DNA from: Rikenellaceae bacterium
GTDB taxonomy: Bacteria; Bacteroidota; Bacteroidia; Bacteroidales; Rikenellaceae
Assembly (NCBI GenBank): GCA_015060065.1
Contig: SUZF01000007.1
Span: 1-64,000, forward strand
Direction: 5' to 3'
DNA length: 64,000 nucleotides
Program-made: the position numbers and the translations under genes
The notes under the pieces: generated by a model
Told to the model about the DNA's origin: nothing
The model's input: only the letters and a program-made list of their open reading frames with translations
The model's database searches: none
In this document: in pieces, positions 1 through 20,824 of the stretch
Position numbering within the stretch: the stretch's first letter is position 1
Layout of the letters: each line of letters begins with the position of its first letter

Positions 1-1626
1 CGCAGGGTCACCCAAATCGGTGGTCGGCTCGACGATAGTGTAGTCGCTCTCATCGTAGTCATAGGGTATGCGGGTAACCACAAAGTCGTCCAAATAGAAT
101 ACATTGTTGGCATCACGCACAATCGTCGGGAAAAATCGTAAAGTTGTATTGTTCGTGAAGGCACCCACCTTGACCTTTACATCGTGCCACTCGCCCGGAG
201 TGAAGTCGTTTTTGTTGATGATTATGGCGTTACGAGCCTGTGATGCTTGCGATAGGCGTGTGCTTGTCTTGGGATTGATGTCAAGTTCCTCGCCATCGAC
301 CCAATAGTTCAAAAATACAAGACCCGATCCGCTGGTAACCTTATCGCCATCATTGTCTGAAACTGCCGTCCATGTGATATAACCCTCAAAGCCCTTCTCC
401 AAGCAGATGCGGAACGAAATCTCTGCCATGCACGGAGTGTTGCCCAGATTCTTCACGAATGGCGTGCGGATGATTCCGCGATTATCGCGATTTGAGGGAT
501 TTCCTCCGCAGATGTATCCCTTAAATTCGCGAGCATAGAAGAGCAGACGCCAATCATCCAATCCTCGGTTGCGCATATACGCCTTTGTAAGATTGAGAGC
601 ATTGCTGTTGTAGGTATAGTGGGTATATTCGGTATTGGTCACAGCCTCCGCACCCGGAGTGTCGCTATTCTTGACGCGCACGGCAACCTCGGTACCAGAA
701 GCTGACTTGGGCGCGAGGTCCGTAGCGTGGCTACCGCGACCCAAACCCTTCGCTCCGGCAACGATATCGCCACCCCACGTACAGTTGTCGAAGTGCTGCG
801 CATAGAGCAGATGCTCGTCAGGCTCGTATGCAACTGTTCCGAGGTCGAGAATCTTGCCCGCCTCGATAGTCTGACTGCCACCGAAGGTCTTCTCGACCTT
901 CTTGTGGTTGCGGTCGCTGATGCGAATCTTGAAGCCGTTGTTATAAGTGCCTGTCGGAACGACGATATTAAACTCCGTGCCACTGCTCGACAGAGCCGCA
1001 CCCTTATCCTCTTTGCCGGCACAGTTGAGGGTTACCCACTTCGATACCACCAATTTGCTCTGGGATGTTGATACCGACTCCTCCTCTCCTGTGAAGTCAA
1101 ACTCGCCGGCAATGCTGCCACCTGCGAGGTCTTCGACATAGATGCTTGTTATGTAGCCTTCGCCCGCCACATTGAGACGGATGATACCACACATCGCCTC
1201 CATATTGAGTGTTTTGCCACCTTTGCACTCGCCATACATCGGCAGCGCGTTGGGGCCAAACGAATTTTCATAGTAAAATTGCGAAAATGGCAGTGTGAAT
1301 ACCATATCCGACTTGTCGAAGAGCAGGGCGGGGTAGAACGCTTCGTAGTGTCCATCCTCTGCCTTCTCCACATGAACCACGGGTTTGCCGTTGTTCATCT
1401 CGACGTAGTATGTTTTGCGATTGATAATGAGGGCTTCGTCAGCCTCCCACGTCACCGCTGACCCTGAAATGTTTTTGGGTCCGAGTTGGAGAGTAATCTC
1501 TCCCTTGGCGGGACCGCTACCACTGCCCGAACCGCCACTATTTTCGTTCTCGTTGGTTGGGTCTTCCGAGCAGCCGACCATAAGCATTGCAGCCACAGTC
1601 GCAAATCTTAAAAAATGTTTTAACAT
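1..1626 (-). CDS. Fimbrillin-like/Mfa-like surface lipoprotein, 3' end truncated by window edge
   Basis: Open frame read by hand from ATG at 1626 (MLKHFLRFATVAAMLMVGCSEDPTNENENSGGSGSG...), lipobox LMVGC, N-terminal region resembling fimbrillin family (ALIINRKTYYVEM...YPALLFDKSDMVFTLP); not in ORF track because it runs off the edge. Confidence 0.75.
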   Translation of the reverse strand, partial: MLKHFLRFATVAAMLMVGCSEDPTNENENSGGSGSGSGPAKGEITLQLGPKNISGSAVTWEADEALIINRKTYYVEMNNGKPVVHVEKAEDGHYEAFYPALLFDKSDMVFTLPFSQFYYENSFGPNALPMYGECKGGKTLNMEAMCGIIRLNVAGEGYITSIYVEDLAGGSIAGEFDFTGEEESVSTSQSKLVVSKWVTLNCAGKEDKGAALSSSGTEFNIVVPTGTYNNGFKIRISDRNHKKVEKTFGGSQTIEAGKILDLGTVAYEPDEHLLYAQHFDNCTWGGDIVAGAKGLGRGSHATDLAPKSASGTEVAVRVKNSDTPGAEAVTNTEYTHYTYNSNALNLTKAYMRNRGLDDWRLLFYAREFKGYICGGNPSNRDNRGIIRTPFVKNLGNTPCMAEISFRICLEKGFEGYITWTAVSDNDGDKVTSGSGLVFLNYWVDGEELDINPKTSTRLSQASQARNAIIINKNDFTPGEWHDVKVKVGAFTNNTTLRFFPTIVRDANNVFYLDDFVVTRIPYDYDESDYTIVEPTTDLGDPA

Positions 1627-1723
1627 CTTTATTTGAAAAATGTCTTAATATCTCTCTTTGAAGTTCAAAAACAGCCGTAAGGGCTTCATGTGAAGGAAGC
1701 CCTTACGGTCTGATTCGAAAAGA

Positions 1724-4108
1724 TTACATATAACGCAACGAAATATTTCCGAAGCGGATATAGTTCTTCTGGGTAGTGTTTTCGCGAAGAACGCCCTGCT
1801 CAACGCTGCCATTCCATTGGAGCGGAAGGCTTGCGAGAACGTCGTCGTAGGGACGGATGCGGATGGTCACTCTATCCTTTCCGAAGATGTCGCTGGGGAA
1901 GAAGAAGATGTGATCCGTGCAACCCATACCGCACGCTGCGGGCGTGTAGTACTTGTTGGCTGTTACCGTCGCATCCCACCACGGGTGCGCGCGCAGTTTC
2001 ACAAACGGCTGATTCGAATATGCATCCGAAACAATCTTGTCGCCTACCGGAGTCCAAGTTGCACCACCATCGATGGTGTACTCTACGCACCAGTGCGCGG
2101 GATAAGCCTTGCTGTTTGCAGCAGAACCTGTACCTGCCATAAAGTTGAATGCCAAGCAGAACTTCGAGCCGCTGATGCCGCGAGTGACAATATCGAGACA
2201 AACGCCATTGTAGCCGATAATCTCCTTCTTGCCGGTCTCTGCGTTATCAGCCCACTTGTACCAGCCCTTCACGTCGTGATCTGAGAGGTAGAAGGCTCTG
2301 CTGGCGCGATTTCCGAGTACCGACCACGTCGTGCCATTCTTGTTCTTGTCCTGTTGCGCTTCGGGGATGGGGTTACCATCACGGTCGATTGTATTTCCGG
2401 GGTCAAGGGCGTTGTAGTGACTGGCAGCCTGCAACGGATATGCACCTGACGAAACCTTGTTCTCGCAACGGAGTTCGGCTGTGAGTTGCGACTCTGCTAC
2501 ATCGGGCGGAACAACCGAATCCACACCATTTGCGGGATAACTTTTGCCGAAGCCGTTTTCCGGCTTGTACAATCCGAACTTGTACGAATACTTACCGTTC
2601 CACTCTGCGAAGGTCTTGTACTTCGCGCCGGTGTCGCCAATCGAGAGAACGTCAGTCTCTTCCACGGGGCGAATCTGGTAGCGACCCATGTAGTCGCCAT
2701 AGCGAGGATTCTGCTCATGAACGATTACACCGCTCATGTCGCCTGCGCCCTGCGGTACGCCATTACCCTTACGACGCCACTCGACGAGCGAGTTGAGCGA
2801 CATGTAGATTGCATCGCCATTTCCGTCGTAGAGTACCGAAGCCCAGCAGTCCATACGGTTGTTGGGTTTTGAATTTGCATCGTCCGCGAAGTTATTCACG
2901 CTCGACAACAGAGCATAACCCTCGTAGTAGTTCACATAAGCACCGTCTTTGAATACAAACTCGGTGTTGGGGAGGGTTACGAATGTGTAGATATCGTTGT
3001 CGGTCAGTTCGCTGATGCTCTTGCGCTTTGCGGGGAGGTCGGCAGCCGTACCAGCCTCACCGGAGAGGAGATTTTCGGCTTTCAGACCGACGATTGCATA
3101 GCGGTCGGGATTGAGTTCCTTGACAATCTTGGTGCCTTTCAGGCCGATTTGCATCTTCGAGTAGCGGCGCAACTCGTTATCCTCGACATTGTCGAAGACA
3201 AGACGGATACCATAAGCACCATCCTCGCTTTCGAGGTAGGCGGTGCGTGCGCTCACCGACGTATCAACCTTGTCGTAGTTGGTGTTGGGGTTGAACGCCA
3301 TATTCTTCGAGCGGAAGTCGCTGACAACCCAACCCGTGAGGTTGATATCGTCGGTTACCTCGAATCCATCCTCGGTAGCCATCTCGCGCACACCCTCGAA
3401 AGTTGCGGCTGCACCGAACTCGTCGTTGCAGTTTGCCTGCGTGATAAATACGCGCAACTCGAACTTCTCGCCCCATCCGTCGATGTACGTGAACGAAACG
3501 ATAGAGTTACGAGGCAACTCGCTGTTGTTTGCTGCGGGGGTCATCGTGAGGACACCCTCCTCGATAGAGATATCCGAAATCCAGTTTGCACCATCGTTGG
3601 TGTAGGCGATTTCGAACTCGTCAAAGGGAATATTCGTATCGACATCGAGCTGAATAGGCTCTACGGACGAACCCTCAATAGCCTTGAAGGGCGCACCGCA
3701 GTCGATTACGGGAACAACACCCGCCTGCTTTACCCATACAGTGTCGGCCCTTTCTCCGGAGTCGAGACAGAGGCGGATGGCGGCCATACGACGGAAGCCG
3801 TCGTTCTGCTTGTACGAAACAACGAGCGTACCGTCGTTGTTCATGTGGTTGTGGTTGAGCGTAGCCCAGTTGCCCTCGATGTTATTCAGGAACTTCACCG
3901 AGTAGCCACCCTTTGCGTAGATAGGAATCTCTACCGCACCCTCTGCCTCATCCACATTGAACTCCGACGTGGGAGCAATCAGTTCGAGGATCTTCGGGTA
4001 CTCGGCATCATCCAACGCCTCGCACGAGGGGAGCGTTACCGCAGCACCAGCCAACAACATCACCGCCATAAAGCAGTTAGTTATCTGTTTGGTTAAATTT
4101 TTGAACAT
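1724..4108 (-). CDS. BACON-like + DUF5689-type surface lipoprotein
   Basis: 794 aa ORF; lipobox LPSC; BACON-like N-terminus (WATLNHN...VWVKQAGV); DUF5689-like segment (FEGVREMA...INLTGWVVSD...) and MSGVIVHEQNPRYGDYMGRYQIRPVEETD motif shared with neighbours. Confidence 0.85.
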   Translation of the reverse strand: MFKNLTKQITNCFMAVMLLAGAAVTLPSCEALDDAEYPKILELIAPTSEFNVDEAEGAVEIPIYAKGGYSVKFLNNIEGNWATLNHNHMNNDGTLVVSYKQNDGFRRMAAIRLCLDSGERADTVWVKQAGVVPVIDCGAPFKAIEGSSVEPIQLDVDTNIPFDEFEIAYTNDGANWISDISIEEGVLTMTPAANNSELPRNSIVSFTYIDGWGEKFELRVFITQANCNDEFGAAATFEGVREMATEDGFEVTDDINLTGWVVSDFRSKNMAFNPNTNYDKVDTSVSARTAYLESEDGAYGIRLVFDNVEDNELRRYSKMQIGLKGTKIVKELNPDRYAIVGLKAENLLSGEAGTAADLPAKRKSISELTDNDIYTFVTLPNTEFVFKDGAYVNYYEGYALLSSVNNFADDANSKPNNRMDCWASVLYDGNGDAIYMSLNSLVEWRRKGNGVPQGAGDMSGVIVHEQNPRYGDYMGRYQIRPVEETDVLSIGDTGAKYKTFAEWNGKYSYKFGLYKPENGFGKSYPANGVDSVVPPDVAESQLTAELRCENKVSSGAYPLQAASHYNALDPGNTIDRDGNPIPEAQQDKNKNGTTWSVLGNRASRAFYLSDHDVKGWYKWADNAETGKKEIIGYNGVCLDIVTRGISGSKFCLAFNFMAGTGSAANSKAYPAHWCVEYTIDGGATWTPVGDKIVSDAYSNQPFVKLRAHPWWDATVTANKYYTPAACGMGCTDHIFFFPSDIFGKDRVTIRIRPYDDVLASLPLQWNGSVEQGVLRENTTQKNYIRFGNISLRYM

Positions 4109-4128
4109 TCTTGTTAGTGTTTTAACTT

Positions 4129-4535
4129 TTTAGTTTGTTGGGGAGTTTAAGGAGTTTAGTGAGTTTAGTAAAATTCCCTAAATTCTCTAATTTCCCTAAT
4201 TTCTCTAACTAATTGTCAATTGTCAATTATCAATTCTCAATTATCAATTTGTACAGACCCCTCCGGTCTTTGACCACCTCCCCTAACTTTGGGGAGGAAT
4301 CAAATGTGGTCCCAAATTCTCCCCCGAAGTTAGGGGGAGTCCCCGCAGGGGGAGGGGGTCCGTCAATTCTCAATTCACAATTCTCAATTCACAATTCTCA
4401 ATTCACAATTCTCAATTCACAATTCTCAATTCACAATTCACAATTCTCAATTGTCAATTATCAATTCTCCTCGGCTTGGTTAGGGCGCCTCCCCCTTGCG
4501 AGTTCGGCACCCACCCTAACCAATTACCGGTGTTT
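4129..4535. repeat. Composite intergenic repeat: short T/C-rich repeats, CAATTNN heptamers, inverted C/G-rich elements and a TTGGTTAGGG/CCCTAACCAA inverted repeat
   Basis: Tandem caattct/caattca/caattgt/caattat units at ~4209-4250 and ~4370-4468; CCCCTAACTTTGGGG (~4281-4296) inverted relative to CCCCCGAAGTTAGGGGG (~4320-4336); TTGGTTAGGG (4476-4485) / CCCTAACCAA (4514-4523). Confidence 0.9.
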
Positions 4536-4544
4536 CATTGAAAA

Positions 4545-7298
4545 TTATTCAACGTAAGTTACTGCAAGGTCTTCGAGAGCGACTGCACAACCGTGGGTAT
4601 ACGTGCTTGTACAGTTGTTACCCTCAACCTCCATAGAGCCTTTGTATGAAGCATCGCTAAACCAAGCAATCTGGGTCGATGCAGGCGAAAGTTTCAACAT
4701 GACTTTCGCTGCTCCGGCTGCGTTTGCCGGCAGGATAAACTTCTGCTGTGTAAATCCGGGGCAGAAATCGAGGTTGGTCTCAATACCTGCCAAGTTAGTT
4801 CCTGTTACAGGATTGTTGTAATTAGTAGTACCACCGGATAACCAGTTCACCATCGGGTTCATCTTGAATTTCGTAGAACCATTGATTGCGTTAGTACAAG
4901 CGGTCCAAGTTGTACCACCATCAATTGAGCAATCAACCTTCCAGAAGATAGGATAGCCAAACAAAGCATCCTTCTTCATCAATTTAGTAACAGTTCCTGC
5001 GTTGTTCGTTTTTGCATAGGGAACCGGTGTTACCGAGAACGAAACTGCCATCTCTCCGGTAGCAGATGTTGCCGGGAACTCCATAACAAGACCCTTGGTA
5101 TCGCTATACGTCGTTCCATCGTCGTTCCAATTATAGAGATCTGCAACATCGAAGTAGTAAGTTAAAGTTGTAGCAATCGATGATGATGTACAGTCCGCAA
5201 CAGTTCCGTGTGCTTGATAACCCTTGTCGCCATCTTGGATATCAGGAGTGTATTGCCAGTTTGCAAAAGTACCAGATGTAATGGCTTTGAGGCTGGTGCG
5301 ATAGAGAACTGCCGAACCATCGGTTATTCCGTGAACTGCGTGCATTTTGTTACAATGAATTTCGGTCATGGTATTGTTGCCAACCAAAAATCCTCCTTCG
5401 GTGGTATTGCCATTCCAAGTGTACTTACCAACAGATACGGTTGCCTTGTCCAAACGCCAGTCAACGAGTTGTTCTACTGCATACTCCTTGGCGGCAGGGA
5501 TATCAAATGAAGTCTGGTCGAAGGGACGAATTTGATATTTTCCTAAATCGCCATAAGCGGGATCAACCTCGTGTACCAACACACCATGAACTGTACCGAT
5601 TCCTTGCGGTGCTTGGATAGTACCACCGGTAAGGTCGCGCTTCCAAGTACATGTATGGTTGATGCAGGCAAAGATAACATCACCACTTCTATCTTGCATC
5701 ATAGTTGCGTAGTGAGCGCGGAACTGATGATTATCACCTGCCATAGTTGCCTGACCATATACATAAGCACCGCCTTTGTGAAGGAACTCCACATCTTTGA
5801 GTTTAACGTCGGTATTGATATCGTCAGCGGTAAGTTCGCTGATATACATCTCCTTGGTTACAATCTCATCCTCGCAACCCGGAGTAAGTTTGAAGATATT
5901 ACTCGGCGAGAATGATGTACAATAGTACTCCCAACCATCGCCAACGGGACACTTAAACCACTGAACAGCACCAAGATTAAGTTTAATCTTATCACCGCGT
6001 TTCATGGTGTTGTTACCTGCGGAATAGTATTCGAAGCGGAAGCCGGCCGTGCCATCCAAAGTTTGTGCATAGAAGGTACGGGTGTTTTTACTGTGGTCTT
6101 GTGATTTGAGAGCAGTATTGATGGGCTTACGCATATTCAAACACTCCGAACCGCTACCGATAACGATAAGTTCCTCGTTCAAAAGTTGATCAACTACGTG
6201 ACCACTAGCCAAGGTTACGCCATCATCTTTGAGAGTTCCCTCCTCTACAGCGTGATCGTGGATATAATCAATACCGATTCCGCCTTTGAGAGTTGCATTT
6301 GCAAGGTTGATATTGAAGGGGCGGATAACTGCGCGACCAAACTCATAGTTGTTGGTTACCTTAACGTCGAAACGACCCAGAGTCTCGGTATAAATATTAA
6401 TTGACGAGTAGGTTGTACTTGCCTCGGTGTAGTACTTACCACCAAACGAGCCGGGGTAGAGAATCAGATAGACGGGAGTACATTCGCCATCAGCACTGCT
6501 GTAACCAACCTGCGGACCCTCTCCGTTATAGTCTGCGATAACGTAGCAGGCGTAAGGAAGTTGAGCATCGGTCTTGTTGTGGCTGGAATAGATGCCACTG
6601 CTGACAATGGTAATGTCGCTAGTCTCGGTAACGGTTGTAAGGTCGAAGTTCGGGCAGTTACCTGCGACATAGTTACAACCGGTAACGTTTTCGTGCTTCT
6701 GTGCCATGAACTTGATACGACGGATTTTGTCAGCCTGATGCTCGTCATTGTCCGAGTAGATGTTGAGTTTCATAATCGAAGCCACGGGACGGAACAGGAT
6801 AGTACCGCCATGCTCGGCAGCGAGATTCGTAGCAACCGAAACCATAGGCAGATACTTACAGTTAATCTGGCCAATAACAGCCTGTGCCTGCACCTCCGGG
6901 ATTTGGAGAGTCACAGCATACGAGTCCTTGTCGTCGTTCAACGAGTTGTAAGGATAGTAAGCCATAACCTTATCGCCCGGAGCGAAAGATGCTACATCTA
7001 CATTTACGCGGGGCGAACCATTAACCAAGTAGATAGTACCCTTTGCGTTCTTGGTAACTGCTGCGGCACCATCAACCGGAGTAACATAAACACCAACGAA
7101 ATCGCCCTCCTCGAACTGGATGGTTGTCTCGTCGTCCATAAATGCCTTGGTCTCTTCGAGTGCAAGACCAAATTCAAGCGGAGTAGCGTACTCTACGCTC
7201 TCGTTCTTGACAACATCGTCAGTGACGTCTGTCGTACATGCCGTAAATGCCATTGCAGCCACGGCCAAAAGTGATAAAATCTTTTTCATTGTCTTCAT
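4545..7298 (-). CDS. Fimbrillin-like N-terminus + DUF5689-type surface lipoprotein
   Basis: 917 aa; lipobox FTAC; LEETKAFMDDETTIQFEEGDFVGVYV fimbrillin-like; VHGVLVHEVDPAYGDLGKYQIRPFDQTSF shared motif. Confidence 0.82.
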   Translation of the reverse strand: MKTMKKILSLLAVAAMAFTACTTDVTDDVVKNESVEYATPLEFGLALEETKAFMDDETTIQFEEGDFVGVYVTPVDGAAAVTKNAKGTIYLVNGSPRVNVDVASFAPGDKVMAYYPYNSLNDDKDSYAVTLQIPEVQAQAVIGQINCKYLPMVSVATNLAAEHGGTILFRPVASIMKLNIYSDNDEHQADKIRRIKFMAQKHENVTGCNYVAGNCPNFDLTTVTETSDITIVSSGIYSSHNKTDAQLPYACYVIADYNGEGPQVGYSSADGECTPVYLILYPGSFGGKYYTEASTTYSSINIYTETLGRFDVKVTNNYEFGRAVIRPFNINLANATLKGGIGIDYIHDHAVEEGTLKDDGVTLASGHVVDQLLNEELIVIGSGSECLNMRKPINTALKSQDHSKNTRTFYAQTLDGTAGFRFEYYSAGNNTMKRGDKIKLNLGAVQWFKCPVGDGWEYYCTSFSPSNIFKLTPGCEDEIVTKEMYISELTADDINTDVKLKDVEFLHKGGAYVYGQATMAGDNHQFRAHYATMMQDRSGDVIFACINHTCTWKRDLTGGTIQAPQGIGTVHGVLVHEVDPAYGDLGKYQIRPFDQTSFDIPAAKEYAVEQLVDWRLDKATVSVGKYTWNGNTTEGGFLVGNNTMTEIHCNKMHAVHGITDGSAVLYRTSLKAITSGTFANWQYTPDIQDGDKGYQAHGTVADCTSSSIATTLTYYFDVADLYNWNDDGTTYSDTKGLVMEFPATSATGEMAVSFSVTPVPYAKTNNAGTVTKLMKKDALFGYPIFWKVDCSIDGGTTWTACTNAINGSTKFKMNPMVNWLSGGTTNYNNPVTGTNLAGIETNLDFCPGFTQQKFILPANAAGAAKVMLKLSPASTQIAWFSDASYKGSMEVEGNNCTSTYTHGCAVALEDLAVTYVE

Positions 7299-7490
7299 TA
7301 GTTTTAGTCGTTCTACAATAGTTTAACAGAGATCCTCCGGAAGTTCCGAATCAAAATTCTCGGTTCCTTGGACTGGATCGAATGACAGGGCGAAACCACC
7401 CTCCACTCTGATGACTTCAATTTCGAAGTCAGGGGTTGCGTAAACCCCGCGTTTTGTTGTTTTCATTTGTCTTTTATTGGTTTTATATGG

Positions 7491-9143
7491 TTATTTGTAA
7501 TAGACATACAATGATCCAAAACGGAAGAACGTCGTCTGCTTGCATTGAGGCGTAACTATCGCCTTATCCATAATCATATCGCTCGCAGGGTTTGAACGTA
7601 TCTGCGCCAACTTGCCATTGGCAGGCGTGATGCGAATCAAAACCTTGTCACATCCGAACACTGCGGGGGGCAGTGCGTAGGTGTGCTGCTGCAAACCCAA
7701 GCCGCAATCGTAGCCCGTGGGCTTAACCCTGCGGTCGCCCGTGAGCAACTTCAAGCGCGCAGGCCAGAACGGCACGGGACGCATATTCGTAATGAGCTGG
7801 TCGGTAGCCGTATCTTTCAACGTAATCCAGCGACGGCCGTCATAGCAACACTCGACCTTCCACTGTGCAGGATACTGCCACGATGAGTCGGCACTCTGGT
7901 TGCCGGCTCCGAAATCGAAGCATACCGACATTGCCGTACCGCTAATCTTCGCTGTCGAGAACTCCACAAAGACCGAGTTGGTGCCGATGATGCGATTGTT
8001 CGAATCGAAGATATACCAACTTGTCGTCGGTCCCTCGAATGCAATAGCACCGCTCCATATACTGCCTCGATTGTGGGTCGTAACGTCGTTATAGTCGTGT
8101 GTGAGGACAAAGAACGAGTTGCTCGTCGTCCACATGAAGCCCTTGCCATACTCTGCAATAAGGCGGTCGCCCTTGACCTCGCGCTTATTGCCCTGACCGG
8201 TCTTGAAGCCCATCATCTCGTAGTTCACGTCTGCCGAGTTGTTCGCCTCGTAGAACCAGCCAACGATGGTCTTGTAGGGAGATTTGCCCTTCACGGGAAC
8301 GATATCCTTCTCATCCACAGGACGAATCTGGAACTTACCCATATTGCCGCCATAGCGACGATTCTCGCTGCTCACGATGATTCCGTTCATCTCGACCATG
8401 CCCTTCGGAACGGTCTTGCCGTTACGACGCCACTGGCAGAGGGTGTTCACGTGCATATAAATCGCCTTGTTGTCCAAGTCGCGAAGCAGTGTAGCCCAAC
8501 TATCCATACGGCTCGTAACGCCATAGGGCTTCGGCACGTTGTGAAGTTCGCTCTTGATGCAGTACGGCTCCCAGATGTTGGTATATGAGCCGTCCTTGAA
8601 GACAAACTCCAAGTCTTTGAGCGTCACGAATGTATAAACATCCGTATCGGTCAAATCCTTGATGTGCTTCTCCTTGCGGACAACCTTCGACGCATCGCCT
8701 TTCTTGAACGAGAGAACGTTGTCGCTCGTCAGATTGCGAATGGTGTAGCGTTCGGGGTTGTACTCCTTGACGATGGTCGCGCCTTTCAGGTCGAGGCGCA
8801 CCGTGCCATAGCGGTAGAGCCCGTTATCCTCCGGTGCCACGAACTTCAAGCGGAATCCCAATGCTCCGTCAGGAGTCTGGATATAAGCTGTGCGCATATT
8901 GTGCGTGATGTCGGTCTTGGCGGTCGAGACGTTGTGGTTGATGTCCATATTCGGACTCTCGCAGTCGCTGATGACCACGCCCTCGATAATTACACTCTCG
9001 GTAACTGTGGTCTTATCCTCCACAGCCATCGCGCGCACCTGCTCGAAGGTCTTAACCTCCTGCGCCCAAATCGACTGCACACCGGCAGTAGCGGTAAGAA
9101 CTGCCGCCACTGCCATTGCGCATATTTTATTCGTGAATTTCAT
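7491..9143 (-). CDS. DUF5689-type secreted protein (minimal form, no lipobox)
   Basis: 550 aa; signal peptide ...GVQSIWAQE without lipobox Cys; FEQVRAMAVEDKTTVTESVIIEGVVISD and MNGIIVSSENRRYGGNMGKFQIRPVDEKD. Confidence 0.82.
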   Translation of the reverse strand: MKFTNKICAMAVAAVLTATAGVQSIWAQEVKTFEQVRAMAVEDKTTVTESVIIEGVVISDCESPNMDINHNVSTAKTDITHNMRTAYIQTPDGALGFRLKFVAPEDNGLYRYGTVRLDLKGATIVKEYNPERYTIRNLTSDNVLSFKKGDASKVVRKEKHIKDLTDTDVYTFVTLKDLEFVFKDGSYTNIWEPYCIKSELHNVPKPYGVTSRMDSWATLLRDLDNKAIYMHVNTLCQWRRNGKTVPKGMVEMNGIIVSSENRRYGGNMGKFQIRPVDEKDIVPVKGKSPYKTIVGWFYEANNSADVNYEMMGFKTGQGNKREVKGDRLIAEYGKGFMWTTSNSFFVLTHDYNDVTTHNRGSIWSGAIAFEGPTTSWYIFDSNNRIIGTNSVFVEFSTAKISGTAMSVCFDFGAGNQSADSSWQYPAQWKVECCYDGRRWITLKDTATDQLITNMRPVPFWPARLKLLTGDRRVKPTGYDCGLGLQQHTYALPPAVFGCDKVLIRITPANGKLAQIRSNPASDMIMDKAIVTPQCKQTTFFRFGSLYVYYK

Positions 9144-9151
9144 AGGTTAAA

Positions 9152-12112
9152 TTATTTTACACAAGTTACCGCTACATCCTCGAAGCAGTATGCAAGTCCA
9201 TGAACAATACCCTTTGTTGCGAACAAGCCCGAACCATTGAGCGGAGTATTCCATGCAGTGGATGTGGGCCATGCCAACTCCAACGAGCGGGGCGAAATCT
9301 TAACCATAACTTTCGCTGCACCTTGTGCATTTGCGGGCAGAATGAACTTCTGTTGAATGTAACCATTCGGCGCGCTGGCTCCTGTCGGAGAGGTTGCAAA
9401 ATAGGTATCCAACGAATCTGTTGATGTCGGAACAGTGTTTGCACCGGTGATGGGGTGGTAGTATCCACATTTGTCGATATACATGTTAATCATGTGCATA
9501 TCGAATCCACCGGTTTGGTCTCCCGTGATTGCGTTGGTACAAGCCGTCCAAGTGTTACCACCGTCAATCGAGCATTCAACCTTCCAGTAGAGCGGGAAGC
9601 CGAATATCATGTGACGATATTTGGCTGCGCAGTTGGGTGCAACAGCGAAAGATACCGCGGCTTTGCCGGTTATCGAACCTCCGGGAACCTCGATAACGAA
9701 GCCGTTGGTGTTGCCGGTCCATGCTCCACTTGCATCCCACTCATAGAAACCTGCGGTCGATGAGGGGAAGCAGATACTGGTCGATTGTGAAGCCGAGTTG
9801 TTGTCACTACCATTTCCTATCGTCGTACGACCCTTCAAACCATTTGCAAGGCCGAGCGGATAATCGCGATTGTCAATTGTACCGGAACTAGCTTTGCTAT
9901 ACCAATAGTGAATAGTCTTGTAGATAAGGGTGTTGTTCGTAGAGTAGAATAGAGCCGAGCCATCGGTTACATCACCGTGTGTAGCCCACATCTTGTTTGT
10001 CGGAACAATACCTGCTGACAGCAGCGGGTCGCTGGTGTTTGTTGTGGCTCCGCGCTGATATCCGCATGCGCGCAACTCGCCTGTACAGCCGGTGTCCTCG
10101 CAAGTGAACTTGTAGTTATTAACCGAGTTCGAGCCTGTGAGGGGACTCCACATAGCGATAACCTTGGTTGCATTCTCTTCTATGGTTGAAACGCCACTGA
10201 ACGAAGTCTCGTCATAGAAGCGGATTTGGTATTTTCCGATATTACCATCAGCAATGTTACCCACGTTCTTCATCTTCTCATGAACGATTACGCCCTTCAT
10301 GCTACCAAAACCCTGCGGAACGCCAACATTACGACGCCAATCTCCGCAGCGAGCATTGAAGAGAGCAAAGATTGCATCGTTATTCTTGTCCTGTACCATC
10401 GTGGGCAATACGCTGAATCTTTCCCAGGGGGGGGTGGCGTTTTTGATATTCGACTCAAATCCAAAGGTCCAAGGAGCCGCAATTATCGTAGTTGTGGCGT
10501 TGTTTACGGTCTTCTTGGTTACAGCCTCTGCATCGGTCAGGGTTACCTCGGTATAGACATCGTCATCGGTCAATTCCGAGATGCTCTTCTCCTTGGTTGC
10601 TATATCACTCTCGTTGCCGGTAGTGAGACCATCGAAGCAACTTGGCTGGGGCTTCGAGATGCTGTAACGCGCGGGAGCATCCTCGCGAACAATCTTCACG
10701 CCATCGAGCAACAGCGAGAACTTATCGCCACGTTTCAAGGTGTTGTCTGCCTCCTCGGCAAAATCGATACGGAAACCATAAGCACCGTCAAGAGTTTGAA
10801 CATAGGCAATCTTGTTGTTCTGATTTACAACAGTTGAATATGCCGTCATCGAATTGGTTGCGATGTTATCACACTCCGTACCGCTACCGATAACCACCAA
10901 TTCCAAAGCATCTGCATAGTCACCCGTGTCGTCGCTAACGCTTGCATAGACATAGTCGCCTGCGGCGGTCAGTGCATCACGAACAACTGCTGCCGAGACA
11001 GGACGCTTGATGGTCTCGCCACGCTGAATTACGCGCAAAGTACCTTCGGTCTTGTTGCCATCGAGGTCGGTGTACGAAACCTTGATGGTTGCGATACGCT
11101 TAACACCCGTATTCTCGGCAATGTCAAACGAAGCACTTGTAGCGGTCATCTGCACATTGCTGATATATTCGCTTGTCTCTCCGTCAGGATAGACAACTTC
11201 GGTAACCATCTCATCGATAAACTCCGTGAGGTTTGTCTCGACAGCCACGCGCACGCCACTCTGCTCATCGCGATTGATGGTCGTGTCGTTGAGGATGATA
11301 TAACCATCGGCAGCCTCCTGCGTAAGTTCTGCATTTGCATAGTACGGATTATTTTCTGCGTCGGTCAAACCATACTTCATAACAGCCACACGGTCCTCGC
11401 CGGTAGTGTTCGGCTGAACGGTGTAGGTAATATAGGGCTTGGTCTTAATCTCGTAGCCCTCATCGTCAGTTCCGGTAACCTCTGCGGGGTGACAAACCAC
11501 GTCGGTAATCCAGTCGGGAGCGGTCGGAGCAGGTGTCTGCTCGCCCTCGCCGGTTGTGCCCTCGCCCTCGTTGGTTGTGCCCTCGCCGGCCTCTTTCAGG
11601 CTTGCAGACGAACTTTCGGGGAAGGTGAGAATCAGTGTCGCATCAGCAAACGCCTCATCGGGGAGGTTGGTATGGATTTCGAGGCGACCCTCGTACTTGC
11701 CATTTGCATAGGTTACATCCTCGCGGTCAAACTTAACCGCACCCTCGCTAACACCTGTGCGCTGGATAAGGCGGATAACCTTCGATTTGCCGTTGGCTTC
11801 GAGGATAAGATTTACACTACGCGAAACACTTGTGTTAAGCGTGTAGTAGAAACGGACATAGCCCGTACCGTGTCCCGATGTGTTTTCGAGATGGCCCCAC
11901 ACGATGTCACGGTCGAGGCGTGCTGTCCAGCGACCCGTGGTGTAGCAAGCGACGGAGAGCATGCCCTCCTCGTAAGAGAGGGTCTTCTGCTCACCATCAA
12001 TCGCCAAGTCCCACGACTCTTCGAACTTCTGGTAGCAAGAGGTCAGTGTTGCCATTACGACAATGAGAACTGCCGCAACTACTGCCTTTGTTTTATTGAT
12101 GATATTTTTCAT
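9152..12112 (-). CDS. BACON-like + DUF5689-type surface lipoprotein
   Basis: 986 aa; lipobox TSC; BACON-like N-terminus; GEGTTNEGEGTTGEGE linker; MKGVIVHEKMKNVGNIADGNIGKYQIRFYDETSF. Confidence 0.82.
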   Translation of the reverse strand: MKNIINKTKAVVAAVLIVVMATLTSCYQKFEESWDLAIDGEQKTLSYEEGMLSVACYTTGRWTARLDRDIVWGHLENTSGHGTGYVRFYYTLNTSVSRSVNLILEANGKSKVIRLIQRTGVSEGAVKFDREDVTYANGKYEGRLEIHTNLPDEAFADATLILTFPESSSASLKEAGEGTTNEGEGTTGEGEQTPAPTAPDWITDVVCHPAEVTGTDDEGYEIKTKPYITYTVQPNTTGEDRVAVMKYGLTDAENNPYYANAELTQEAADGYIILNDTTINRDEQSGVRVAVETNLTEFIDEMVTEVVYPDGETSEYISNVQMTATSASFDIAENTGVKRIATIKVSYTDLDGNKTEGTLRVIQRGETIKRPVSAAVVRDALTAAGDYVYASVSDDTGDYADALELVVIGSGTECDNIATNSMTAYSTVVNQNNKIAYVQTLDGAYGFRIDFAEEADNTLKRGDKFSLLLDGVKIVREDAPARYSISKPQPSCFDGLTTGNESDIATKEKSISELTDDDVYTEVTLTDAEAVTKKTVNNATTTIIAAPWTFGFESNIKNATPPWERFSVLPTMVQDKNNDAIFALFNARCGDWRRNVGVPQGFGSMKGVIVHEKMKNVGNIADGNIGKYQIRFYDETSFSGVSTIEENATKVIAMWSPLTGSNSVNNYKFTCEDTGCTGELRACGYQRGATTNTSDPLLSAGIVPTNKMWATHGDVTDGSALFYSTNNTLIYKTIHYWYSKASSGTIDNRDYPLGLANGLKGRTTIGNGSDNNSASQSTSICFPSSTAGFYEWDASGAWTGNTNGFVIEVPGGSITGKAAVSFAVAPNCAAKYRHMIFGFPLYWKVECSIDGGNTWTACTNAITGDQTGGFDMHMINMYIDKCGYYHPITGANTVPTSTDSLDTYFATSPTGASAPNGYIQQKFILPANAQGAAKVMVKISPRSLELAWPTSTAWNTPLNGSGLFATKGIVHGLAYCFEDVAVTCVK

Positions 12113-12144
12113 AGTTGTACTCTTATATTATATATAGGTATCTT

Positions 12145-13902
12145 CTACTGTATGCCATTGACTGTGTATTCGTCGTTGGTCAGCGCGCCACCCGAAAGAC
12201 CGCACTGTGTATCAGGAATCGGGTAGTAGCGGTGACAAGGCTTCATGTTGTCTTTGAGTTTGGTGTAGTTGGAGTAGGTAAAAGTCTGCTCATACCAGAT
12301 GCCCCAACGTACCAAGTCGTACTTACGCATAAACTCTCCTGCCAACTCACGGCCACGCTCATTGCGAATCTCGATGGTCAGCTCCTCGAATGACGAGAAG
12401 TTCTCGTAGGCAGGGATGCCTGCACGCTCCTTGACCATATTGAGGTATCTCAAAGACTCTGTGTCGTCACCCTTCTCGCAATAGCACTCTGCAAGCATCA
12501 GGATTGCATCTGCATAGCGGAACAGACGGTAGTTGTTACCATCGTAGGTGCTGATAATACCGGGGCACCAGAACTGCGGGCCGGGCCAAGGTACACCGAA
12601 ATCACGAACAAGCGAGAAAGTGTAATCTTTGCCGAGAGTACTTTCGCTATCAACATCTCCAAGTCCGAGTTTGTATTGGATTCGCTTATCGACCGGAGTG
12701 CCGTCAGCGAACTTGCCGGTCTTGGCAGCCTCTTTGTCGAGTTGTACATAATAGCGAAACTGAGTGCCGGAAACCTTGAATACATTGTCGGGAATATCGT
12801 CCTTGTTCTCATCGACGGCATTGTCGTCGTAGGTCAAAGGAAGCGGATTGTAAAGACCGGCCTGTTCGTATCCACTCTGCAGCTCCTTTTTTACATATTT
12901 CGCTTCAGTTGCATAAGCCGGGCGGAAGATTCCGAGGTAGTTGTTGGCACGCAACGAAGCCCAAGCGGTCATCGTATCGCCATACTCGCTCAAAAAGACA
13001 CCGTTGAACACGCCCTTGCCTTGGTGCGGCGGCATCATGATACAAGCCACGTTACCATAGTACTGAACGCCATCCGGAGCGTAGTTCAACTGCAACTCGA
13101 AGATGCCTTCGGGTACGTTCTTGTAACGCCACATAATCTCGTGGAGAGGATACTGCTGCAAGTCGCCATACAACTCTTCGAGTTTGAGCAACGGTGTGAG
13201 CGCCTCGTCCCACTGCTGATTCCACATAGCGAACTTCGCCATAAGCATATAACCCAGAGCGGCACCCGCGCGAGCCTCTTTATCCTCGCAAGTACGCTGC
13301 TGTGGCAGGTACTGCATATGCTCGTTGATGTCGTCATAGAGAGCCTGACGAGTCTCGGCTGCACTCATACGAGGCAGACGACGCACCTTTTCGAGGGTTG
13401 CGATATCCTTCACACGCTCGGTGTAGTAGGGAACATCTCCGAAGAACGAAGTGAGAATGTAGTAGTAGAATGCGCGAAGCACAACAGCCTCGGCAACCAG
13501 AGGCATCTTCTTCTCGTCCTCGACTTTCGATGCGAGGATACAGTCGATACACTCGTTGCAACGCATAACGCCCTGATAACCGTACTGCCATACGTTCTTA
13601 CCCATCTGGGGCTTCGCGGGCGATACGTCAAGGATTGCATCCACGGTCGAAGAGGTACAATACCAGAGGTCAGTACAGCCCTCGACTGCCATCATATAGT
13701 TTGCCGTAAAAATCGGCTTCATAGAGTTGTAGCACGAATTTACCGCTGCGCGACACTGCAAGACATTCTCATAGAAGGTCTCGTGGTCCACGAACGAATC
13801 CGGCTCCTCTTGAAGGTTGCAGGCGGAGAATACCAATGCCGCCAGCGATAACAATGTATATTTAATTGCTTTCATAATCGTTTTCGTATTTTGGTTCGAC
13901 AT
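12145..13902 (-). CDS. RagB/SusD family nutrient-uptake outer membrane lipoprotein
   Basis: 585 aa; FSACNLQEEPDSFVDHETFYEN lipoprotein start; SusD-like RYADAILMLAECYCEKGD and IRNERGRELAGEFMRKYDLVRWG; immediately downstream of SusC with 1-nt overlap (TAATG). Confidence 0.95.
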   Translation of the reverse strand: MSNQNTKTIMKAIKYTLLSLAALVFSACNLQEEPDSFVDHETFYENVLQCRAAVNSCYNSMKPIFTANYMMAVEGCTDLWYCTSSTVDAILDVSPAKPQMGKNVWQYGYQGVMRCNECIDCILASKVEDEKKMPLVAEAVVLRAFYYYILTSFFGDVPYYTERVKDIATLEKVRRLPRMSAAETRQALYDDINEHMQYLPQQRTCEDKEARAGAALGYMLMAKFAMWNQQWDEALTPLLKLEELYGDLQQYPLHEIMWRYKNVPEGIFELQLNYAPDGVQYYGNVACIMMPPHQGKGVFNGVFLSEYGDTMTAWASLRANNYLGIFRPAYATEAKYVKKELQSGYEQAGLYNPLPLTYDDNAVDENKDDIPDNVFKVSGTQFRYYVQLDKEAAKTGKFADGTPVDKRIQYKLGLGDVDSESTLGKDYTFSLVRDFGVPWPGPQFWCPGIISTYDGNNYRLFRYADAILMLAECYCEKGDDTESLRYLNMVKERAGIPAYENFSSFEELTIEIRNERGRELAGEFMRKYDLVRWGIWYEQTFTYSNYTKLKDNMKPCHRYYPIPDTQCGLSGGALTNDEYTVNGIQ

Positions 13903-16900
13903 TAGTAACGGAGTTGAATACTAAATACAATCGTTCTCGCACGCGGGTATGCACCCATATCGACACGACGGAGGGTCGAGCCATCGCTCTCGGTCGAAAC
14001 GTCGGGGTCGAAACCGTTGTAGTCCGCCCACAAGTAGAGGTTGTTACCAACCACCGAGAGGGTGATGTCACGCAGAGCCTTGGTCTTCTTGCGCAAGTCG
14101 AATGTATAAGAGATATTTACGTTTTGCAGACGCAGGTACGAAGCATCGTGAATCTGCAAGTCGCTCGGTACAAATATATCGTCCGTACCCGCACGCGGGA
14201 GATTCGAATTCGGGTTACGAACAGGGTGCCAGCGATTAACCATATAACGATACTGGTTAGATGAACTACCTCCTGCCATTGCCAACTCCGAATAGTTGTA
14301 AATCTTACCGCCAAGCGAGTAGGTGAAGTAGATACCCAACTTCAAACGTCCGATGTGGAACGTGTTCTGCAAACCTCCGTAGAGGAACGGGTCAGAATTA
14401 CCCATATAGACAAGGTCAGCCTCCGACAACTGTCCGTCGTTGTTGGTATCAACGTACTTCGGATAACCGCGCATGGTCATTCCGTTTGTACCGCTCGTAG
14501 AGGATACGTAGGTGTGGGTAAGCTGGTTGCGGTCGAACTCCTCGGCAGTCTTCCATACGCCTGCGTACTTGAAGCCCCAGAGAGAGTTGAGAGGATAGCC
14601 CGCCTTGTAACCATACATCATGAAGGGCGAGTTACCACCACTGTTGAGTGCCGAAATATACTCCTCGTGACCGATGTCCTCGACCATCTGCTTGTTGTGC
14701 GAAATTGTGAAGGTGGTATTCCACTGGAACTTGGGCTTCACGATGTTGCGACTCTCGATGGTAAGTTCGACACCCGTATTTGTTGTGCTACCGATATTTG
14801 TATAACGGCTGGTAAAACCTGTTACGTGTGCAGTCTGCAATGAGAGCAACAGGTCGGTAGTCTTCGAGTGATAACCCTCAATCGAGATGCCCAGACGGTC
14901 ATCAAATGCCGAGAAGTCGATTGCTGCGTTGTAGAGTGTGGTCTTCTCCCAAGTAAGGTTGGGGTTCTCCAAACGCGAAGGATATACCGTGATTGCCTGC
15001 GAGCCATCAAACACGGCACCGCTGGTGCTGGTGCTATATGCCTCCAATGAACGATATACCGAGATGGCGTTGTTACCTGTGCGACCTGCACTCAAACGCA
15101 GAGCCAACTCGTTGAGCCAACGCTGGTTTTTGAGCCAACGCTCGTTTTTCAGATTCCAACGGAACGCTCCCGAAGGGAAGAAGCCCCACTTGTTGTTGGC
15201 TGCAAAGTTCGACGATGCGTCGGCGCGTGCAGTAAGGGTGAGGTAGTAACGCGAGCGGTAGTTGTAGTTGAAACGAGCCAAGACAGACTCACGAACAACC
15301 TTCTCGAATGAGGTCGAGGCGGTGTAGTTCTCCTTGCTACCGATAGCGTTCATATTGTTCCACTTCATGTTATCCGAAATCAAACCCTTCGCATTGAGCG
15401 AGAAGCGATTTACAATCTCGTGCATAGCGGTAAAACCTGCCATAACATTGAAGTTGTGACCCGTTTTGAGTTTTTTGTCGTAGGTGATGGTGTTCTCCGA
15501 AGTCAGACGACGAGCATCACCCTCGTAACGATACCCCTCGGCACCCTCATTCTCGGTCTTGCGCGGAAGGGTACTCGGATAGAAGCGGTAGTCGTGACGC
15601 TGATAGACCATATACGAGTTCTGGCTCTTAATCTTCATACCCTTCATCGGTGTAAAGGTGAAAATCAAGACGTTGGTATTGGTCAGCTGCTCCTGCTCGT
15701 TGGTGTTGTACTTGATAGTTGCCCACGGAGAGTTGAAACGAGATGCGTTCTCGTACATCGGGTTGTAGAAATCTCCCGGTTTGATAATCGGCGAGAGGTA
15801 GATTGCGCCACCCCAAACATTTGTACCACCGATTGCCGCTTTATTGACATCAACCTTACGGAAGGTGTAACTACCCTTATAACCAACCTCTAACCACTTT
15901 GCGAACTTGTGGTTGATGTTGAAACGTCCGGTAATACGGCTGAAACCACTATCCTTGATGATACCCGGAGTGTCGGTGTAGCCGATGTTGGCGTAGTAGT
16001 TCGTGTTCTTTGAACGACCACTTACCGAGAGGTTATAGTTCTGGGTGAAGGTTACGCGGGTAATCTCTTTGAGCCAGTTGGTACCCTTGCCATAAGCCGA
16101 CGGGTCTTGTGTGGTGACATAGTCGTTTGTTCCTTCGGTAAATGCCTCCGTGTTGAAGAACGAGCGGTCGATGACGTATTGCGCCAACTCTGTTGCATTC
16201 ATTACGTCGAGCGTGCGGGCAATGTGCGACGTACCGAAGTCCATTTTGAGGGTTACGGTAGGTCTTGACAGCGAACCGGAACCCTTCTTTGTGGTAACGA
16301 TGATGACACCGTTAGAACCACGCGAACCGTAGATTGCGGTCGAGGAGGCATCCTTCAAAATCGAGATAGACTCGATATCCGAAGAGTTGATGTCGGTCAG
16401 GTCCTGAACGGCATCGATGACACCATCGACAACGATAAGAGGCTCGTTAGATGCGGTAACCGAACGAGTACCACGGATACGGATAGAGGTCGATGCGCTG
16501 GGGTCACCAGAGGTGGACATGATATCCACACCGGCAACACGGCCTTGCAATGCCTGGTCAATCGAGGTTACCGGAGCGTCCTTGATGTCGGACATCTTGA
16601 CGTTGGTAACCGAACCGGTAAGGTCGCTCTTCTTGACCTCGCCGTAACCGATTACGACCACCTCGTTGATGGCAAGACTCTCGTCTTGTGCCATGGTGAC
16701 GTTAAGCACGGTGCGGTTGCCCACAACGATACTCTGCGTCTTGTAACCGAGGTATGAAAATTCGAGAACGCCCTGTGTCGGGCCGAGAGTGATTTGGTAC
16801 GCTCCGTTGAGGTCGGTCGATACACCTTTCTTGCCATCAGGTGTTGCTACCGTTGCTCCGATAAGAGCAGTACCTTCGGTGTCTTTGACGACACCATTGA

Positions 16901-17039
16901 TTGTTACCTCCTTGGTCGATGCGCTCTGCGCAAAGCCCGTCAGAGGACTAAACGCTAAAAGCAGACATAGCGACAGCAGGATTTCCCCCCCCCTCAATTT
17001 TTGAGAGAAAAGTTTCTTAAAGTGTAGAATTCCAGCCAT
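13902..17039 (-). CDS. SusC/RagA family TonB-linked outer membrane protein
   Basis: 1045 aa; VTINGVVKDTEGTALIGATVATPDGKKGVSTDLNGAYQI carboxypeptidase-like domain; NEVVVIGYGEVKKSDLTGSV plug; YGSRGSNGVIIVTTKKG; C-terminal SIQLRY. Confidence 0.97.
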   Translation of the reverse strand: MAGILHFKKLFSQKLRGGEILLSLCLLLAFSPLTGFAQSASTKEVTINGVVKDTEGTALIGATVATPDGKKGVSTDLNGAYQITLGPTQGVLEFSYLGYKTQSIVVGNRTVLNVTMAQDESLAINEVVVIGYGEVKKSDLTGSVTNVKMSDIKDAPVTSIDQALQGRVAGVDIMSTSGDPSASTSIRIRGTRSVTASNEPLIVVDGVIDAVQDLTDINSSDIESISILKDASSTAIYGSRGSNGVIIVTTKKGSGSLSRPTVTLKMDFGTSHIARTLDVMNATELAQYVIDRSFFNTEAFTEGTNDYVTTQDPSAYGKGTNWLKEITRVTFTQNYNLSVSGRSKNTNYYANIGYTDTPGIIKDSGFSRITGRFNINHKFAKWLEVGYKGSYTFRKVDVNKAAIGGTNVWGGAIYLSPIIKPGDFYNPMYENASRFNSPWATIKYNTNEQEQLTNTNVLIFTFTPMKGMKIKSQNSYMVYQRHDYRFYPSTLPRKTENEGAEGYRYEGDARRLTSENTITYDKKLKTGHNFNVMAGFTAMHEIVNRFSLNAKGLISDNMKWNNMNAIGSKENYTASTSFEKVVRESVLARFNYNYRSRYYLTLTARADASSNFAANNKWGFFPSGAFRWNLKNERWLKNQRWLNELALRLSAGRTGNNAISVYRSLEAYSTSTSGAVFDGSQAITVYPSRLENPNLTWEKTTLYNAAIDFSAFDDRLGISIEGYHSKTTDLLLSLQTAHVTGFTSRYTNIGSTTNTGVELTIESRNIVKPKFQWNTTFTISHNKQMVEDIGHEEYISALNSGGNSPFMMYGYKAGYPLNSLWGFKYAGVWKTAEEFDRNQLTHTYVSSTSGTNGMTMRGYPKYVDTNNDGQLSEADLVYMGNSDPFLYGGLQNTFHIGRLKLGIYFTYSLGGKIYNYSELAMAGGSSSNQYRYMVNRWHPVRNPNSNLPRAGTDDIFVPSDLQIHDASYLRLQNVNISYTFDLRKKTKALRDITLSVVGNNLYLWADYNGFDPDVSTESDGSTLRRVDMGAYPRARTIVFSIQLRY

Positions 17040-20002: not shown

Positions 20003-20824
20003 ATGAAAAAAATGCTCTTTACAGCCGTGGCTGCATTGGCAACACTGTCGCTCTCGGCACAAACACAAGTAATCGCCCATCGAGGTTTCCATGCCAAGGA
20101 GGGCTCGGACAAGAATACCATTTCGAGCCTGCTGAATGCTCAACAACTTGGTGTTTATGGCTCGGAGTGCGATATCAGCATGTCGGCAGACGACTCTCTG
20201 ATGGTCGTACATGGCTCGATGCATCCCGACCGCCGCATTCCGGCTCCGCATAGAGTGCATGTTACGAAGGACGTATATAAGGATATCCGTGCTATTTCGT
20301 GTGAGGGTGGAAATATCGTTCCTACACTGCGTGAGTACCTTGTGCAGACCAAGAAGTATCCCGGCACGAAACTCGTTATCGAGATTAAGAATCACAAAGG
20401 CGACACCCCGGAACGCCAGAAGTTTTTCACAAAGAAGATTGTTGAAATGGTTGCGGAGTTCGGCTTGGAGAAGCAGGTTGATTATATCGCCTTCTCGAAG
20501 ATTATATGTGACGAGTTGGTAAAACTCGCTCCGAATAATGAGATTGCCTACCTCAATGGAGATTTTACCCCTGCCGAGTGTAAGCAGCGCGGTTATACCG
20601 GTATCGACTATTCAAGAAAGGTGCTGCGTGAGCATCCGGAGTGGGTTAAGCAGGCGCAGGAACTTGGTATGAAGGTTAATGTCTGGACGGTAAATAAGCC
20701 GGAGGAGATACAGTTCTTTATCGACCTCGGAGTTGATTTTATCACTACCGACAATCCGCTCGAAACCATCAAACTTATCGAGGCGAGCCAGAAAAAGCAT
20801 AAGAAGGGCAAGAGCCGTAAATAA
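20003..20824 (+). CDS. Glycerophosphodiester phosphodiesterase family protein
   Basis: 273 aa; QVIAHRGFHAKEGSDKNTISSLLNAQQLG, ECDISMSADDSLMVVHG, NVWTVNKPEEIQFFIDLGVDFITTDNP; signal peptide. Confidence 0.92.
   Translation: MKKMLFTAVAALATLSLSAQTQVIAHRGFHAKEGSDKNTISSLLNAQQLGVYGSECDISMSADDSLMVVHGSMHPDRRIPAPHRVHVTKDVYKDIRAISCEGGNIVPTLREYLVQTKKYPGTKLVIEIKNHKGDTPERQKFFTKKIVEMVAEFGLEKQVDYIAFSKIICDELVKLAPNNEIAYLNGDFTPAECKQRGYTGIDYSRKVLREHPEWVKQAQELGMKVNVWTVNKPEEIQFFIDLGVDFITTDNPLETIKLIEASQKKHKKGKSRK

Follow-up and report, generated by a model that had tools for sequence, protein, structure and literature searches.

What a SusC/SusD operon without any enzyme might do is the question raised by the left end of a 64,000-nucleotide stretch of DNA from a Rikenellaceae bacterium (contig SUZF01000007.1 of assembly GCA_015060065.1), hereafter called the window. 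Within positions 1-17039, the ORF list contains a run of minus-strand genes for SusC, SusD, the proteins W5, W4, W3 and W2, and the open-ended W1. A sequence-only reading had described this run as a same-strand array of SusC, SusD, four DUF5689-type proteins and a lipoprotein, which Pfam and NCBIfam searches confirmed, and had proposed that it might be an enzyme-free, multi-component system for surface binding, adhesion or decoration. The SusC/RagA TonB-dependent outer-membrane transporter (W7; 13902..17039; TIGR04056, 815.9 bits, with Plug and CarbopepD_reg_2 domains) adjoins the SusD lipoprotein lid (W6; 12145..13902; PF07980, 93.9 bits, and PF14322, 62 bits), and the two genes overlap by 1 base.

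The pair is followed by four paralogues, as a single 22-row protein alignment drawn from this and sibling loci spans W2 to W5. W5 (9152..12112, minus strand) is a lipoprotein of 986 aa with BACON repeats (PF13004, 34 bits), a DUF5689-like domain (10166..10999) and a C-terminal jelly roll. W4 (550 aa; 7491..9143, minus strand) combines a DUF5689 domain (8274..9056), modeled as a tandem OB-fold, with a jelly roll. W3 (917 aa; 4545..7298, minus strand) is a lipoprotein with a fimbrillin-like N-terminus and a diverged DUF5689 domain (5475..6278), and W2 (794 aa; 1724..4108, minus strand) is a DUF5689 lipoprotein with the domain at 2618..3406. The Pfam cut-off for DUF5689 (PF18942) is 28.6 bits; W4 (48.5) and W2 (29.6) pass it, W3 (17.2) stays below it, and the domain of W5 was recognized by alignment. 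NCBIfam offered no family name for any of W1-W5, and a sequence search of the DUF5689 proteins against the PDB gave nothing useful. The IVHE...QIR block that the sequence-only reading had seen in all four proteins corresponds to the final part of the DUF5689 domain, but it is looser than was stated (GIIVSSEN in W4 and GVLVHEVD in W3). The gap between W2 and W3 contains AT-rich tandem repeats of 7, 9, 14 and 18 nt (4143..4469).

As had been noted before, the ORF list and Pfam revealed no genes for glycoside hydrolases, polysaccharide lyases, sulfatases or proteases within 1-17039, and no HTCS, SusR or ECF/anti-sigma regulator was found there or among the neighboring ORFs. Upstream of SusC, the next genes encode a ribosome-hibernation factor and an integrase of the XerC/D type. 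On the opposite strand, at a distance of about 3 kb from susC, a gene for a glycerophosphodiester phosphodiesterase (GDPD; 20003-20824) is flanked by aldose epimerase and galactokinase genes.

The window starts at base 1 of its contig (C10), and at this position the contig breaks off within the last gene, W1, of which 542 N-terminal aa are present (1..1626, minus strand). Thus, the absence of an enzyme could never be observed from the window. Synteny across Alistipes provided the remainder: orthologous operons were found in two other genomes (G031 and G002) and in A. montrealensis, and in the former two the uncut W1 has 896 aa (L046) and 894 aa (L051), respectively, with a C-terminal AP_endonuc_2 domain (PF01261) in both. 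When a full-length W1 was searched against the genome under study, residues 4-555 matched C10:1-1629, and residues 553-895 matched C5:22994-24022 with 95% identity, at the extreme end of that 24024-base contig. The ends of C10 and C5 have 11 identical bases in common (window positions 1..11). The joined ORF encodes a lipoprotein of 883 aa, has no internal stop and, across the join, shares 85% identity with its G031 orthologue. Reading frame and orthology give good support to the putative join of C5 and C10 within W1, and it places the AP_endonuc_2 domain at C5:22994-24024, beyond the window.

The missing enzyme of the operon is, therefore, an assembly artefact. The sequence-only reading had itself named enzymes close outside the left edge as a finding that would speak against it, and its system without degradative enzymes is further countered by EEP phosphodiesterases in sibling loci of the same genome. 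The four paralogues do look like binding-type proteins around a SusCD pair, as had been suggested. For adhesion or decoration, the search yielded a sub-threshold fimbrillin-like similarity in the N-terminal region of the W3 orthologue (PF13149, 21.4 bits) and nothing beyond it. With the enzyme domain of W1 found across the contig break, an enzyme-free surface system has become highly improbable. More generally, a contig break can create an apparently enzyme-free SusCD locus.

The C-terminal domain of W1 belongs to PF01261 (64.9 bits), and its barrel profile matches endonuclease IV (3aal; 2.9e-5) and MJ1311 (3wqo; 1e-8), whereas the match to the model of the CbiR phosphodiesterase is weak (30 bits, with a cut-off of 105). 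The columns aligned with 3aal include the equivalents of H69, H109, E145, D179, H182, H216, D229 and H231, which, with E261, are the nine zinc ligands of endonuclease IV. Eight of the nine ligands are thus found by alignment, and the ninth, a C-terminal Glu in place of E261, is assigned by position. All nine positions are invariant in six sequences, i.e., the A. montrealensis protein and five aligned barrels; the latter represent three genomes and include two second-type barrels of the genome under study. Sugar isomerases of the superfamily are not known to use this ligand set. Strong W1-type barrels are rare: of the 151 genomes that were sampled within the genus, 4 encode them. Named relatives are Alistipes MAGs from the gut of yak, goat and water deer and A. 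montrealensis kh20. Weak TIM-barrel matches in other Alistipes (about 30-108 bits, mostly in frames of 300-400 aa) were taken to be generic isomerase-like proteins and rejected as orthologues, and Polysacc_lyase (16.9 bits) and Lipid_bd (14.3 bits) were rejected as identities of W1, being far under the Pfam cut-off.

The N-terminal chassis of W1 (about residues 8-424) is shared with proteins that carry a C-terminal EEP domain, which are encoded in the same genome on contigs C2 (L070:7256-9868; 33% identity) and C34 (C34:53-57k; L072). As two unrelated phosphodiesterase folds are carried by the same chassis, the barrel of W1 can be argued to work as a phosphodiesterase as well. Hence, from family assignment and ligand conservation, W1 is most likely a surface-located, metal-dependent phosphodiesterase. 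On C34:51-58k (L072:5495-11961), three proteins with a terminal EEP domain are encoded in tandem, and the last two have the chassis of W1.

The company of such enzymes was assessed in four Alistipes genomes with 55 SusD matches, 14 of which have a DUF5689 gene within 8 kb on the same strand. An EEP (PF03372) or AP_endonuc_2 domain is encoded within 16 kb on the same strand at 13 of these 14 loci vs. 5 of the 41 others (Fisher p 7e-8), and within 12 kb at 10/14 vs. 3/41 (p 8e-6) or, for EEP alone, 9/14 vs. 2/41 (p 1.4e-5), but these p-values overstate the strength of the association, because some loci are orthologous and the distance cut-offs were chosen after the loci had been seen. For the locus in the window, the AP_endonuc_2 match on C5 was put at its joined coordinate. 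SusD loci with EEP but without DUF5689 also occur, e.g., two in genome G023, and EEP alone is, therefore, not diagnostic. Sibling loci in the genome under study include a SusCD-DUF5689-BNR/EEP locus (C34:17-28k), an EEP-SusCD-DUF5689 locus (C9), and a locus with SusCD, three DUF5689 genes, two AP_endonuc_2 genes and GH30 (C34:109-131k). At the end of the latter (L012:1845-8825), the GH30 gene, whose product resembles the endo-1,6-beta-glucanase BT3312, lies between genes for two AP_endonuc_2 lipoproteins. By sequence, sigma/anti-sigma-like genes are present at a sibling locus on C34.

These data bear on the proposal that the operon is a PUL for glycans or peptides, with the DUF5689 proteins serving as ordinary glycan binders at the surface and with W1 as a TIM barrel of the sugar-isomerase kind. 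The SusCD pair, the BACON repeats, the CBM-like jelly rolls and the GH30 of the sibling locus would fit such a PUL, and PF01261 is named xylose isomerase-like. However, no carbohydrate-active enzyme was found in the window operon or its continuation on C5, in agreement with the earlier view that this is not a classic glycan PUL with glycoside hydrolases, and neither the operon nor the next genes on C5 encode a peptidase. Together with the endonuclease IV ligand set kept in W1 and the enrichment of phosphodiesterases at DUF5689-SusD loci, this makes a glycan or peptide PUL improbable.

What the paralogues might bind was approached by structure prediction and Foldseek. These analyses, which had been suggested for all four proteins, were run on W4 and produced OB-fold matches that are individually weak, as well as jelly-roll matches. 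The AlphaFold models are confident, with a pLDDT of 81.6 for W4 and a pLDDT of 89.6 and a pTM of 0.90 for its DUF5689 domain alone. The best matches of this domain in the PDB are nearly all OB-folds that bind ssDNA or RNA, i.e., POT1, Oxytricha TEBP-alpha, HIN, LEF-3, Teb1, RPA and MCM, with a best E-value of 3.6e-3 and TM scores of about 0.2-0.34. Since no single match is strong, DUF5689 is described here as likely a tandem OB-fold, and its possible binding of nucleic acids as a lead from the model. The C-terminal part of W4 resembles jelly rolls, e.g., the adhesin domains of gingipains and CBMs.

The paralogues differ in charge and in predicted location. W5 is acidic (pI 4.7), and the same holds for the DUF5689 domain in each of the surface lipoproteins W2, W3 and W5 (pI 4.5-5.2). 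Typical non-specific nucleic-acid binders are not acidic. W4, in contrast, is basic (pI 8.95); it is probably located in the periplasm and not at the surface, as its leader is of the signal-peptidase-I type and lacks a lipobox. Among its lipobox-free counterparts, those at L011:7329-8957 and L048:7146-8762 are basic as well, and the one at L016:9722-11323 has a DUF5689 domain that is near neutral. The existence of two kinds of DUF5689 proteins, acidic lipoproteins vs. lipobox-free proteins, suggests a division of labor between surface and periplasm.

DUF5689 is also found outside the genus, where the gene follows that for a TonB receptor, with a divergent EEP_3-type gene alongside, in 5/5 loci with both flanks available (L079, L081, L082, L083 and L084); a sixth locus (L080) is cut short, but the receptor gene is there. 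In the genome under study, a counterpart on C19 (L010:590-9182) consists of consecutive genes for a non-specific endonuclease, EEP_3, a TonB receptor and DUF5689. Natural transformation of Riemerella depends on a DUF5689-DUF5017 protein and on an outer-membrane protein encoded next to it, both of which are essential (PMC8459023), and the DUF5689 protein at L079, with DUF6359 between DUF5689 and DUF5017, has a similar domain composition. By analogy, the C19 set of receptor, DUF5689 and EEP_3 appears to resemble the Riemerella transformation pair. One might then suppose that the operon in the window, too, serves DNA import for transformation and not nutrition, a view to which the Riemerella genetics and the presence of ComEC in the genome lend some support. 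However, the C19 locus is a separate and better match to the Riemerella pair, and the window locus is SusCD-based, contains multiple paralogues and is rare in the genus, which makes a role in transformation very unlikely.

On C5, W1 is followed by genes for a 510-aa MFS protein of the OPA group, an alpha/beta-hydrolase (BD-FAE/Abhydrolase_3) and an acyltransferase, the family of the last being assigned on the G031 orthologue. The OPA protein is PgtP/GlpT/UhpT-like but diverged and scores far under the equivalog cut-offs. Its gene is next after W1 in three of the four loci that can be read past W1 (this genome, G031 and G002); in the fourth, that of A. montrealensis kh20 (L078), W1 is instead succeeded by an S1/P1 nuclease (97.9 bits) and then by a W4-type protein. 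The usual cargo of OPA transporters is phospho-sugars or glycerol phosphate, not nucleotides. DUF5689 and an OPA transporter are paired independently in G023, where SusC, SusD, EEP, DUF5689, OPA and EEP genes are co-directional (L053:537-10987). On contig C37 of the genome under study (L009:6067-11411), genes for a GpsA-like protein, an OPA transporter, SerB and two small DUF5689 lipoproteins are consecutive, and a TonB receptor gene faces them. Matches to S1/P1 nuclease number 10 in the 1.86 Mb of this genome. Four adjacent S1/P1 genes are found at C17:69-73k (L016:6233-9644), three of them co-directional with the DUF5689 gene that follows.

The OPA gene adjacent to W1 in three orthologous loci, and present in the G023 locus, is one reason to consider a phosphodiester substrate other than nucleic acid, such as phospholipid head-groups, teichoic acid or a phosphoglycan, from which phospho-alcohols or phospho-sugars would be released by cutting at the surface and imported by the antiporter. 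The similarity of the EEP proteins to sphingomyelinase as well as to exonuclease III, the acidic surface DUF5689 domains and the nearby GDPD gene point in the same direction, and PUS loci of Flavobacterium have been proposed to act on phosphodiesters, e.g., lipid head-groups and nucleic acids (PMC8115612). On the other hand, the OB-fold neighbors of DUF5689 bind nucleic acid, an S1/P1 nuclease lies inside the kh20 operon, and DUF5689 is genetically linked to DNA uptake (PMC8459023). A non-nucleic substrate is, then, possible but rather unlikely.

The reading that we prefer, with a probability of roughly 0.5, is that the operon serves SusCD-type scavenging of molecules with phosphodiester links, most probably nucleic acids that come from lysed cells or digesta. 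The case for a phosphodiester as substrate is fairly good, because enzymes of three unrelated families are found in related loci. Nucleic acid is favored over other phosphodiesters by the OB-fold, the S1/P1 nucleases and the Riemerella genetics, and it is disfavored by the acidic surface domains and the OPA transporter. The GH30 in one sibling locus also speaks against the preferred reading. The most economical account of the computational results, i.e., gene order, the continuation of W1, ligand conservation, the OB-fold model and the co-occurrence of phosphodiesterases, is a path of capture, cutting, import, periplasmic handling and inner-membrane uptake, with catalysis, localization and substrate as its presumptive parts. 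The lipoproteins W5, W3 and W2, with their DUF5689 tandem OB-folds and jelly rolls, would capture the polymer at the cell surface, where W1, as an endonuclease IV-like lipoprotein with a trinuclear zinc site, would cut it. SusC and SusD would import the fragments with TonB-derived energy, and the basic W4 may receive them in the periplasm. The alpha/beta-hydrolase could act later, in periplasmic handling, as could the diverged OPA-family organophosphate:phosphate antiporter, in uptake over the inner membrane.

Among known systems, the PUS loci of Flavobacterium contain SusCD pairs (PusCD) with phosphodiesterases, are induced at low phosphate and were proposed to import organic phosphorus (PMC8115612). 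The operon described here resembles them in that a SusCD-like pair is co-localized with a phosphodiesterase, as judged by family assignment, and not with carbohydrate enzymes. However, the PUS enzymes are calcineurin-like/PLC, PhoA and others (PMC8115612), whereas here an endonuclease IV-like lipoprotein is predicted together with DUF5689 paralogues. By gene content, the window locus appears to fit the PusCD kind with a different enzyme and receptor set. The combination of SusCD with phosphodiesterases was thus already known, and the endonuclease IV-like enzyme and the DUF5689 set are new. The Riemerella anatipestifer pair RA0C_RS04915/RS04920 (PMC8459023) likewise combines an outer-membrane transporter-like protein with a DUF5689 protein, and its DNA cargo is known at the phenotype level; it is not SusCD, however, has one DUF5689 protein, and no surface phosphodiesterase was described for it. 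In the DNA-degradation loci of Ca. Izemoplasmatales, genes for secreted nucleases are co-localized with those for binding proteins and transporters, which together serve nutrition on nucleic acids, but these loci belong to another phylum and use ABC transporters, with no mention of SusCD or DUF5689 in the parts of their description considered here (PMC8289736). The latter report and that on the PUS loci were the only relevant ones in a literature search on SusCD nucleic-acid or teichoic-acid loci, which covered mainly open-access journal papers. With classical Sus/PUL systems, the operon has SusC, SusD and downstream surface-binding lipoproteins in common, but a phosphodiesterase-like enzyme takes the place of the carbohydrate-active enzymes.

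A wider proposal, possible but tentative, is that gut Alistipes have a family of SusCD loci for eating DNA or RNA, analogous to PULs, in which multiplied OB-fold surface receptors, akin to the DUF5689 protein that accompanies the DNA-uptake receptor of Bacteroidota, would be combined with interchangeable surface phosphodiesterases, either endonuclease IV-like or EEP, on the same chassis. The cultured strain A. montrealensis kh20 has the system, so the proposal can be tested there. If true, it would give DUF5689 a testable function and add phosphodiester polymers to what SusCD systems transport in gut Bacteroidota, and it would suggest extracellular DNA, RNA or other phosphodiesters as a niche for Alistipes.
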